Origin: Pseudomonas sp. NC02
GTDB lineage: Bacteria; Pseudomonadota; Gammaproteobacteria; Pseudomonadales; Pseudomonadaceae
NCBI RefSeq assembly: GCF_002874965.1
Contig: NZ_CP025624.1
Span: 5,146,001-5,210,000, forward strand
Direction: 5' to 3'
DNA: 64,000 nucleotides
A program made the position numbers and the translations under genes. The first letter of the stretch is position 1. Every line of letters begins with the position of its first letter. This document shows, piece by piece, positions 22,312 through 28,472 of the stretch. Under the pieces are notes generated by a model. The model did not search any database and had not been told where the DNA came from. It saw nothing but the letters and a program-made list of their open reading frames with translations.

Positions 22312-22431
22312 ATGTCGGCGTGGCATCTCCCCCAAGTGACGCGTCGACCTGGGTACCGACGGACTGCGTACCCTTGTTTTACTCCTAATGGTCTTAGCCC
22401 GGATTCACCCCCCAGAACCCGGGTTTTTTTT
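22312..22431 (+). ncRNA. rgsA: RgsA small regulatory RNA
   Basis: About 120 nt, with no coding potential. It lies between the TetR gene and tatD, exactly where RgsA is found in P. aeruginosa. Visible structure: stem GGGTAC (22351-22356) with GTACCC (22368-22373), an open U-rich region (CTTGTTTTACTCCTAATGG), then a strong terminator. Bases 22372-22391 are complementary to the leader and ribosome-binding region of acpP in this same window (9 + 11 matched bases with a single bulge at 28461). AcpP is a reported RgsA target in P. aeruginosa, which supports the identity. RgsA is RpoS-dependent and indirectly GacA-controlled. The 5' end is estimated. Confidence 0.85.
22398..22431 (+). terminator. 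Intrinsic terminator of rgsA
   Basis: CCCGGATTC pairs with GAACCCGGG (22415-22423) with a single A-C mismatch, followed by eight T residues (22424-22431). It ends ten bases before the tatD stop codon, which is on the other strand. Confidence 0.85.
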
Positions 22432-22440
22432 GCCTGCGAT

Positions 22441-23226
22441 TTAGTGGCTGACGTGGGCCAGCGGGAACAGGCGCTTGAAGTTCTCGGTGGTCTGTTCGGC
22501 AAAGCGCTCGTAGGACTCGCCCCGCAGCATCGCCAGGTAATCCGCCACATCCCGTACGTATTCCGGCAGGTTGGGTTTGCCGCGATGGGGAATTGGCGCC
22601 AGGTACGGCGAATCGGTTTCCACCAGCAGGCGGTCTGCCGGGACCTGGCGCGCGACATCGCGCAGGGCATCGGCGTTGCGGAAGGTCACGATGCCCGACA
22701 AGGAAATGTAGAAACCAAGGTCCAGCGCGGCCTTGGCCATGTCCCAGTCTTCAGTGAAGCAATGCAGCACACCAGCCTGGGGCAGCGCGGCTTCGCGCAG
22801 CAGGGTCAGGGTGTCGGCACGGGCGCCACGGGTGTGGACGATCACCGGCTTGCCAGTCTGCTGGGCGGCTTGCAGGTGCAGACGGAACGACGCCTGCTGC
22901 AACTCGGCAGCTTCCGGTTCGTAGTGGTAATCCAGGCCGGTCTCACCGATGGCCACCACGCGCGGGTGATTGAGTTCACCGAGCAGCCAGTCGAGGGCCG
23001 GGGCTTCGCCGGGCTTGAGGTCCAGCGGGTGAATGCCCACCGAGCAGTCGACATCGGCATAACGATCGGCCAGGGCTTTGACGTCGGCGGCGTTTTCCGC
23101 GCTGACGCCGATGCACAGGAAGTGCCCTACCCCGCGCTGGCGCGCAGCTTCAAGGGCGGCGTCGAGGGAGCCGCCGTGCTGGGCCAGGTCGAGGCGATCA
23201 AGGTGGCAATGGGAATCTACGAGCAT
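22441..23226 (-). CDS. tatD: TatD-family metal-dependent hydrolase
   Basis: 261-residue TIM-barrel hydrolase of the TatD DNase family. Metal ligands: H6 and H8 (DSHCH), Glu in IGETGLDYH (about 93), His in IVHTRGA, His in HCFTED and Asp in VETDSPYLAP. TatD enzymes degrade DNA with 3'-5' exonuclease activity and are linked to DNA repair and quality control. It lies at the end of the holB-tmk-mltG-pabC-fabF run. The gene that normally precedes it in Pseudomonas, pilZ, is missing, and only 63 bp separate it from holB. Confidence 0.94.
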   Translation of the reverse strand: MLVDSHCHLDRLDLAQHGGSLDAALEAARQRGVGHFLCIGVSAENAADVKALADRYADVDCSVGIHPLDLKPGEAPALDWLLGELNHPRVVAIGETGLDYHYEPEAAELQQASFRLHLQAAQQTGKPVIVHTRGARADTLTLLREAALPQAGVLHCFTEDWDMAKAALDLGFYISLSGIVTFRNADALRDVARQVPADRLLVETDSPYLAPIPHRGKPNLPEYVRDVADYLAMLRGESYERFAEQTTENFKRLFPLAHVSH

Positions 23227-23289
23227 AGGGATCTACAACTTGAGTCACGGAAAGTGTCTGGCCAACGATACACCCGTCGGCCACTGAAA

Positions 23290-24279
23290 TTAACGGCGGC
23301 CGAGCAAACCGACCCACTGCACCAGCAAGGCCTCAAGCAACAGCACGCGATTGAGGTTGGCCTTGCCGAGGACCTTCTGGCGTTGGGCGAGGATCCAGTC
23401 CTGGATGTTCAGCACCTTGTCCTGGGCGCTCTTCTGCGCCAGGTATTGCACGACTTTGCGCATGTCCGGCAGCCCAAGGCCGTTTTCGTCCTGGGTCAGC
23501 TGGTAGCGCAGGATCAGGCTCGACCAGTCGCAAAACCAGTCGAACAGCAGCAGCAAGGGAATGTCTTTCCAGGCGCTTTCGGCCAGTTGCGTGGCCGACA
23601 CTTCCTGCTTGAGCAGTTTCTTCACCCCGCCCACCACCAGCGCACGCTGTTCACGCACGCCCTGGGCCTGGAGCTTGACCGCCGCCAGAGGCGAACCGGC
23701 CGCCAGGGTCAGCAACTCGACGCGCTCTGCCTCGCCGCAGTCCGGCAACGCCTGCGCCAGCCACTGCAGGCTCATGGCTTCGCTCGGCAACGGGCAGGCC
23801 TGCTGCACGCAGCGGCTGCGAATGGTCGGCAGCAGGCGGCTGGACTGGTGGCTGACCAGCAGCAGCACGGTATCGCCGGACGGTTCTTCCAGGCTCTTGA
23901 GCAAGGCGTTGGCGGCGTTGATGTTCATCGACTCCACCGGTTCGATCAGCACCACCTTGCGCCCGCCCATCTGCGCGGTCTGCACCACGAAGCTGACCAG
24001 ATCACGCACCTGGTCGACCTTGATCGCCTTGTCGGCCTCTTCCGGTTCCAGCAGATAGTTGTCCGGGTGGCTGCCGGCCTTGAGCAGCATGCAGGATTTA
24101 CATTCGCCGCAGGCTTCCAGGCCGTTGGGCCGCTGGCACAACAAGCTGGCCATCAGCCGCTCGGCCAGGGCGCGCTTGCCGATGCCCACCGGGCCGTGGA
24201 GCAGGTAGGCGTGGGCGTGCTGGGCACGGCCCGCCAGTTGCTGCCAGAGGCTGTCCTGCCACGGGTAGGCTTCAGCCAC
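23290..24279 (-). CDS. holB: DNA polymerase III subunit delta'
   Basis: 329-residue clamp-loader subunit. P-loop-like [10 protein letters not shown] near 33 replaces the active GxxGxGK[ST], as expected for non-ATP-hydrolysing delta'. The zinc module [17 protein letters not shown] and the [22 protein letters not shown] and TIRSRCV (SRC) motifs follow. The GTG start at 24279 overlaps the tmk stop by eight bases and has GGAG seven bases upstream; a GTG at 24285 is an alternative. It is coupled to tmk, as in other gammaproteobacteria. Confidence 0.94.
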
Positions 24280-24904
24280 GGACACGCTCCACAAGCTTCG
24301 GCAACAGGGCGTCAATGCACTGCTGAACCTGAGTCAACGGTTGTGCGGCGTCCAACAGGTAGTAACGGGCGGGGTCGGCTTCGGCGCGCTTGAGAAACGC
24401 GCCGCGCACAGCTTCAAAAAAGACTCGGGTTTCCAGTTCGAAACGATCGAGGCGACCCCGGGCGGAGGCACGGGCCATGCCGACTTCCACCGGGAGATCG
24501 AACACCAGGGTCAGGTCGGGCCGCAAATCGCCCTGGACGAAGGTTTCCAAGGCCGCAATGCGCTCCAGGGACAAGCCACGACCGCCGCCCTGATAGGCAT
24601 AGGTGGAATCGGTAAACCGGTCACAAATCACCACGGCGCCCCGGGCCAGTGCCGGGCGAATGACTTCGGCCAGGTGCTGGGCGCGGGCGGCGAACACCAG
24701 CAACAGCTCGGTGTCGGGGTTCATCTGTTCGTCGCCCGGGGTCAGCAGCACTTCACGGATACGCTCGGCCAGTGGCGTGCCGCCAGGCTCACGGGTCAGC
24801 AGCACCTCGATACCTTCGGCGCGCAGGCGCTCGGCCAGGTATTCACGGTTGGTGCTCTTGCCGGCGCCTTCCGGGCCTTCCAGGGTAATAAACAAGCCAG
24901 TCAC
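24272..24904 (-). CDS. tmk: Thymidylate kinase
   Basis: 210 residues; phosphorylates dTMP to dTDP with ATP. P-loop GPEGAGKST near 10, the DRF motif in [19 protein letters not shown], and the LID region [12 protein letters not shown] with arginines in the LID, as in the E. coli-type (type II) enzymes. It follows mltG by 19 bp and overlaps holB. Confidence 0.96.
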
Positions 24905-28103: not shown

Positions 28104-28150
28104 AGCACTCTCCTTTTTCTAATGACGACACTTTGCATCAGGCTTAAAGG

Positions 28151-28184
28151 AAAAAACCGCACGCCATAGGGCAGTGCGGTTTTT
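28151..28184 (-). terminator. acpP-fabF intergenic terminator/attenuator
   Basis: Read on the minus strand, AAAAACCGCACTGCC and GGCGTGCGGTTTTTT form a stem of about 12 pairs with an internal mismatch and end in T residues; the reverse is also T-rich. It lies 30 bp after the acpP stop and probably lets only part of the transcription continue into fabF. Confidence 0.8.
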
Positions 28185-28213
28185 CCATCACAGCAAGCGA
28201 CGATTACAAACTA

Positions 28214-28450
28214 TTACGCCTGGTGGCTAGTAACGTAGTCGATAGCAGCTTGAACGGTAGTGATTTTTTCAGCTTCTTCGTCCGGGATTTCGGTCTCGAA
28301 TTCCTCTTCCAGAGCCATCACCAGCTCAACGGTGTCAAGGGAGTCGGCACCCAGGTCTTCAACGAAGGAAGCGCTGTTGGTCACTTCTTCTTCTTTAACG
28401 CCCAGTTGCTCGGCAACGATTTTCTTGACGCGCTCTTCGATGGTGCTCAT
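28214..28450 (-). CDS. acpP: Acyl carrier protein
   Basis: 78-residue acidic carrier of fatty-acyl chains. Ser37 in GADSLD takes the 4'-phosphopantetheine arm. Codon use is strongly biased, as expected for one of the most abundant proteins. The 192-bp upstream gap holds its own leader with AGGAG (12 nt from the ATG) and a nearer AAGG. This leader is complementary to the RgsA sRNA (see findings), so translation is probably repressed when RpoS is active. Confidence 0.98.
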
Positions 28451-28472
28451 ACCTTGTTTTCACTCCTAATGG
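28451..28472 (-). promoter_or_regulatory. RgsA target site over the acpP ribosome-binding region
   Basis: On the minus strand the leader reads CCATTAGGAGT, one G, then AAAACAAGG just before the ATG. The 11-base and 9-base blocks are exact complements of RgsA bases 22381-22391 and 22372-22380, with the single G (28461) bulged. The duplex would cover both AGGAG and AAGG. Direct base comparison shows the match; repression is inferred and agrees with published RgsA control of acpP in P. aeruginosa. Confidence 0.8.

Follow-up and report, generated by a model that had tools for sequence, protein, structure and literature searches.

One class of small RNAs (sRNAs) consists of Hfq-dependent molecules that cover a ribosome-binding site. 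The closest described system is RgsA (P16; family RF00628) of Pseudomonas with its target acpP; according to the passages on it in PMC5686131 and PMC9308961, it represses AcpP through base pairing. The account in PMC8395346 describes the translation of both fis and acpP as inhibited by RgsA in an Hfq-dependent manner, and PMC6321483 lists the same two genes as its targets. Hfq binding and loss of target translation are reported for Pseudomonas aeruginosa (PMC8395346, PMC6890931). The repression of acpP can be traced via PMC5686131, PMC8395346, and PMC9308961 to Lu et al. (2016, Mol Microbiol 102:244), so that the statement of the sequence-only reading that this control is published for P. aeruginosa agrees with these accounts. 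A conserved region 71–77 of RgsA is described as needed, and a downstream site 141–175 is also named (PMC9308961). In P. fluorescens CHA0 the 5′ end of the RNA is given as GTCGGCGGG, and a tatD homologue is reported downstream of rgsA in every Pseudomonas strain sequenced at that time (PMC2375449). The Rfam family is stated to include 87 nt upstream of the transcript start (PMC3709562). The locus described here is another genomic instance of a regulatory pair that is already known from a different species.

The only RF00628 covariance-model match in the one-contig genome of 6.89 Mb (rgsA is single-copy) is found at 22229–22422 of the window, i.e., of the whole analysed stretch of 64,000 nucleotides of Pseudomonas sp. 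NC02. It covers model positions 1–194 of 194 with 195.4 bits, compared to a curated cut-off of 88.4, which bears out the assignment of the sRNA as RgsA. Since the Rfam model counts the promoter, and the CHA0 5′ end has its counterpart GTCGGCGTG at 22314, the transcript is shorter than the Rfam match (Table 1). The −10-like element terminates six bases ahead of the inferred start, and rgsA is convergent with a tatD homologue, as expected of the family. In the predicted fold, nt 61–70 and 73–76 are open, with an unpaired probability of at least 0.88, whereas nt 59–60 lie in a stem and nt 71–72 and 77–78 form a weak two-pair hairpin. The window also contains an rne-II RNA element (36118–36385, plus strand; RF01756, 268.1 bits), which is presumably a leader element of the gene for RNase E.

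Table 1. Features of the rgsA–acpP region, in coordinates of the window.
Feature	Position	Strand	Basis or remark
RgsA sRNA, about 117 nt	22314..22431	+	RF00628, fold; 5′ end by likeness to P. fluorescens CHA0, 3′ end in terminator T-run
rgsA promoter region	22229..22313	+	Inside Rfam model, outside transcript; letters, as described in PMC3709562
Conserved upstream element GTATTCCAAATCTGTTTAAAAAACG	22243–22267	+	rgsA promoter region
−10-like CAATACTT	22301–22308	+	RpoS assignment by likeness to the promoter described in PMC2375449
Pairing block CCTTGTTTTACTCCTAATGG	22372..22391	+	RgsA nt 59–78
Core ACTCCTAATGG within pairing block	22381–22391	+	RgsA nt 68–78
TatD-family gene, convergent with rgsA	22441..23226	-	TIGR00010, 275.5 bits
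acpP, acyl carrier protein, 78 aa	28214..28450	-	NF002149, 155.3 bits; TIGR00517
acpP leader complement of block, CCATTAGGAGTGAAAACAAGG	28452..28472	-	−22 to −2 of acpP; AGGAG at −17 to −13
Possible own promoter of acpP (TTGAAA, 18 nt, TACACT)	28501..28530	-	1 match vs 1.1 expected
Weaker core complement at rpmF ribosome-binding site (TTTAGGAGTTAATCAA)	31682..31697	-	−8.7 kcal/mol

The plus strand in front of the minus-strand acpP reads CCTTGTTTTCACTCCTAATGG at 28452–28472, which repeats the letters of the block with an extra C at 28461. As RNA, the acpP leader is CCAUUAGGAGUGAAAACAAGG from −22 to −2. The letters and positions given in the sequence-only reading (22372–22391 and 28452–28472, with the extra base at 28461) are exact. 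Complementarity to the ribosome-binding site of acpP is encoded elsewhere, in rgsA, and as the two loci are 6 kb apart, RgsA is not a cis-antisense RNA. The match to a possible own promoter of acpP is weak, because such matches in the region are no commoner than chance.

The best explanation of the whole, to which we assign a probability of roughly 85%, is that RgsA pairs with the acpP leader over AGGAG and lowers AcpP synthesis. RgsA, being RpoS-dependent, would be made in stationary phase and under stress. The unpaired stretch that links the middle stem to the terminator (nt 61–80) would then pair with the acpP leader across AGGAG, most likely with the assistance of Hfq, and AcpP synthesis would fall in stationary phase and stress. 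By analogy with the P. aeruginosa and P. fluorescens literature, RgsA would be expressed, bind Hfq, and repress acpP in this strain as well.

Corrected for accessibility, the acpP duplex has a net predicted energy of −17.5 kcal/mol and joins RgsA nt 62–80 to acpP −24 to −5. Pairing over both AGGAG and AAGG had been proposed; the former is covered, but AAGG (−5 to −2) is reached at its edge only, since RgsA nt 59–60 (CC) are in a predicted stem and the best duplex ends at −5. By energy, acpP is second of 364 start regions. The background consisted of 363 predicted starts taken from 464 kb of the 6.89-Mb genome, namely the 64-kb window plus 20 dispersed 20-kb stretches, with start codons picked by a rough rule and frames of fewer than 120 codons excluded, so that acpP itself lies outside the background set. 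The one lower duplex (−18.3 kcal/mol, with a start in L225) is formed by the C-rich loop CUCCCCCA (window 22324–22337, RgsA nt 11–24), and this loop may be a second seed. TAGGAGT-N2-13-ATG is listed in 31 rows genome-wide, and among the 30 scored (29 distinct sites) acpP has the lowest energy, the next being −15.0 kcal/mol. In the 67 genomes with both partners (62 distinct pairs), the best duplex has the core on leader TAGGAGT or AGGAGT, at −6.2 to −19.2 kcal/mol. For the published targets fis and rpoS, no good pairing of RgsA was found in the start regions in this genome, the values being −6.6 kcal/mol for fis (RgsA nt 51–65, which share with the block no more than its 5′ edge) and −2.1 kcal/mol for rpoS (nt 20–27). 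Therefore, either the energy model recovers known targets badly or the targets differ between species, and these predicted scores count against using the model ranking as a test of function.

Two other genes of the neighbourhood were considered. The start region of fabD, which belongs to the same gene cluster, gave −12.0 or −13.3 kcal/mol, depending on which of two possible starts is taken; CATTAGG is missing there in many relatives, and fabD was rejected as a conserved target. At rpmF, TTAGGAGT is constant in the Pseudomonas and Stutzerimonas loci, although this conservation has another possible cause, as its TAG also terminates the reading frame upstream. With TAGGAGT before ATG also listed 31 times in the genome, rpmF was left as a weak candidate.

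The two sides of the pairing differ in their conservation. On the RgsA side, ACTCCTAA is present in all 67 genomes aligned, the window included (62 distinct RgsA sequences); the aligning script searched with this word, and 0 sequences failed it. The word ACTCCTAATGGTCTT occurs in 58 of the 62 distinct sequences. The nine bases 5′ of the core are variable (CTTTGTTTT in 24, CCTTGATTT in 7, CCTTGTTTT in 5, and others), and the acpP leader takes the forms CCATTAGGAGT, CCATAGGAGT, CCAATAGGAGT, CCACTAGGAGT, and others among the 67 genomes. Thus, the conserved block expected from the window contracts to its core, kept in 67/67 aligned genomes, and does not extend over the whole 20 bases. The anticipated covariation of block and leader did not appear either: the cognate pairs have a mean of −13.38 as against −13.23 (sd 0.14) for permuted ones, and 145 of 1000 permutations are as low. 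Compensatory change, the mark of a coevolving sRNA–target pair, is not seen in these genomes.

Some members of the family lack the core. At E 0.1, RF00628 matches occur in 22 of 30 genomes, and five of the 22 have no core (G002, G005, G022, G018, and G034), the matches in G018 and G034 being at chance level. In G005 (L336, about 1500–1700, minus strand) the upstream element and the terminator are kept and the core is lost; its acpP leader is CCTTTAGGAGT and its pal leader CTTTTAGGAGT. Three genomes that are 99–100% complete (G297, G019, and G013) have neither an RF00628 match nor the core and appear to be natural losses. G297 has a single near site, a word with two mismatches that is also found elsewhere in the genome of this window.

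In the comparison set of 30 genomes from 19 genera (17 with the RgsA core and 13 without), CCA-N0-3-AGGAG precedes acpP in 15 of the 17 and in 8 of the 13, respectively. G013 has the exact CCATTAGGAGTGAAAACAAGG before acpP, yet it has no RF00628 match, and a genome-wide search of it for a site within two mismatches of ACTCCTAATGGTCTT found none. In other lineages, as judged by title, the form TAGGAGTGAAAAC was found in 0 of 46 loci, of which L040 is perhaps a family member. As the motif is kept in these eight core-less genomes, it is a family trait partly independent of RgsA, and by itself it is no proof of regulation. The RgsA core therefore passes the conservation test offered earlier for the pairing, but for acpP that test has no diagnostic value.

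The same core has a second frequent counterpart in the genus. The pattern CATTAGGAGT-N2-20-ATG is present in 57 of 59 genus genomes, with 0 to 5 matches each; its reversed control gives 0 to 5 per genome, mostly 0 to 2. Among the matches listed (47 genomes), the acpP form is found in at least 40, the pal form (CATTAGGAGTTTCACGATGGAAATG or a close variant of it, counted by likeness only in G303 and G309) in at least 45, and the form of a C-terminal processing peptidase (CATTAGGAGTTCGTTCGACATG; TIGR00225) in at least 9. Translation of 30 loci gave 12 Pal (TIGR02802, 139.8 bits), 10 AcpP, and 8 others, including two such peptidases. The 10-mer complementary to the core is about as frequent at pal as at acpP start sites in the genus. 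Additionally, CATTAGGAG precedes pal in 9 of the 17 genomes with the RgsA core and in 0 of the 13 without it (Fisher p 0.003, phylogeny ignored), with G002, where the pal start is ambiguous, counted among those without CATTAGGAG. Being missing in 8 of the 17, the word is not universal. Within genus g2, G001, with RgsA, has TTCATTAGGAG at pal, and G019, without RgsA, has TTCACTAGGAG. The predicted pal duplex here has −11.4 kcal/mol and is weaker than that of acpP. We tentatively put forward pal (oprL, peptidoglycan-associated lipoprotein) as a candidate that RgsA might also control through the same core. In the open-access literature we found no report of pal (oprL) as an RgsA target and nothing on oprL, sRNA, and base pairing, with oprL appearing beside RgsA only in a reference title. 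If true, such control would mean that RpoS lowers membrane lipid synthesis and envelope anchoring together via one seed.

These comparisons lend some weight to another reading. In it, the core would be retained chiefly on account of other targets, as an anti-Shine-Dalgarno seed of general use, and the length of the acpP match would in part follow from the highly conserved acpP ribosome-binding site. The greater constancy of the RgsA core relative to the acpP leader, the retention of the acpP form without RgsA, and the occurrence of the same 10-mer at pal across the genus are all as this reading would have it. We nevertheless regard it as unlikely, as acpP is the lowest of the TAGGAGT sites (−17.5 vs −15.0 kcal/mol for the next) and repression of AcpP is reported in the accounts of PMC5686131, PMC8395346, and PMC9308961. 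Direct control of acpP by RgsA remains the preferred reading, with a core that is probably kept by several targets, acpP being the strongest by energy and pal a new candidate.

The neighbourhood of the two genes is itself widespread. RF00628 matches are found in 269 of 298 family genomes at E 0.001, with 252 above the curated cut-off. Of the 80 loci fetched around acpP relatives, titles place 30 in the Pseudomonas lineage, and RgsA lies within the fetched stretch in 27 of them. The other three are L004, with an insert between the genes, L028, and L022; these counts are bounded by the fetched length, L022 being a 6.8-kb contig too short to show rgsA. In turn, acpP lies within 11 kb in 39 of 40 further stretches picked by RgsA, with L174 (again with an insert between) as the exception. 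In the 27 and 39 stretches the genes are on opposite strands, about 6.0–8.3 kb apart; as these stretches had to contain both genes, the fair synteny figures are 39/40 and 27/30. The 6-kb spacing of sRNA and target, singled out in the sequence-only reading as special, is ordinary synteny. In these two other Pseudomonas genomes, the inserts (L004:13567–19530 and L174:4449–10229) interrupt the thymidylate kinase gene of the host, which lies between rgsA and acpP (tmk, 24272–24904 in the window), leaving codons 1–14 beside the insert in L004 and residues 99–210 in L174. Each encodes large proteins, one with a Phage_integrase domain (PF00589), as well as a nucleotide kinase of its own (Thymidylate_kin, 45% identical to that of the window, in L004; DNMK in L174). 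As far as it is covered, the insert has the look of a mobile element that takes the place of the essential gene into which it inserts.

A likeness of 20 bases on the same strand at two places 6 kb apart could also have arisen if the RgsA block were a short duplication of the acpP leader. This origin appears very improbable, as the likeness stops at the block ends in the alignment, and RgsA of the Stutzerimonas/Halopseudomonas loci L031, L015, and L017 has the core without TTGTTTT, whereas the acpP leaders there are already GAAAACAAGG or GAGAACAAGG. The TTGTTTT extension thus looks, in this unrooted comparison, like a later gain in RgsA.

The complementarity is also rare in the genome. The pattern CCTTGTTTTN{0,1}ACTCCTAATGG has two sites in the 6.89 Mb, the RgsA block and the acpP leader, and 0 in the reversed control; TACTCCTAATGG with at most one mismatch finds the same two sites only, compared to 13 + 13 for the control. 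When the 117-nt RgsA is aligned locally with everything else in the window, the acpP leader scores 18, and 200 order-1 Markov surrogates of the window have a mean of 12.9 and a maximum of 17. The likeness is above chance, though only modestly so when the 64 kb are considered by themselves. That it is a functionless coincidence is barely conceivable: surrogates do reach 17, but 0/200 reach 18, only two sites exist genome-wide, the match sits on the ribosome-binding site, the RgsA core is conserved, and repression is reported for P. aeruginosa in the accounts cited (PMC5686131, PMC8395346, PMC9308961). The match is real, and it probably has a function.

The whole-genome and comparative tests support the view that, in one more Pseudomonas, a published stress sRNA can act on the carrier at the centre of fatty-acid synthesis. 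They also delimit the conserved part of the RgsA–acpP pairing and indicate that a conserved acpP leader does not by itself prove regulation. Three new points are the most useful: the sRNA core is nearly constant and its target drifts, the acpP motif persists where RgsA is missing, and pal is a lead that, if true, would place lipid synthesis together with envelope integrity under a single RpoS sRNA.

With the published RgsA (P16), the RNA described here shares the sRNA family, the tatD neighbour, and the target gene acpP; the genome is a different one, and the comparison with P. aeruginosa is at the level of genes. Numbered from 22314, i.e., from the P. fluorescens start, nt 71–77 are CCUAAUG inside the block, so that the region 71–77 named in PMC9308961 would fall there, whereas numbered from the Rfam start, 141–175 spans the block. 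The mapping is uncertain because one numbering cannot put both in the block. None of the features compared distinguishes RgsA from the Hfq-dependent sRNAs that cover a ribosome-binding site, with which it shares an unstructured linker with an anti-Shine-Dalgarno core, followed by a terminator.
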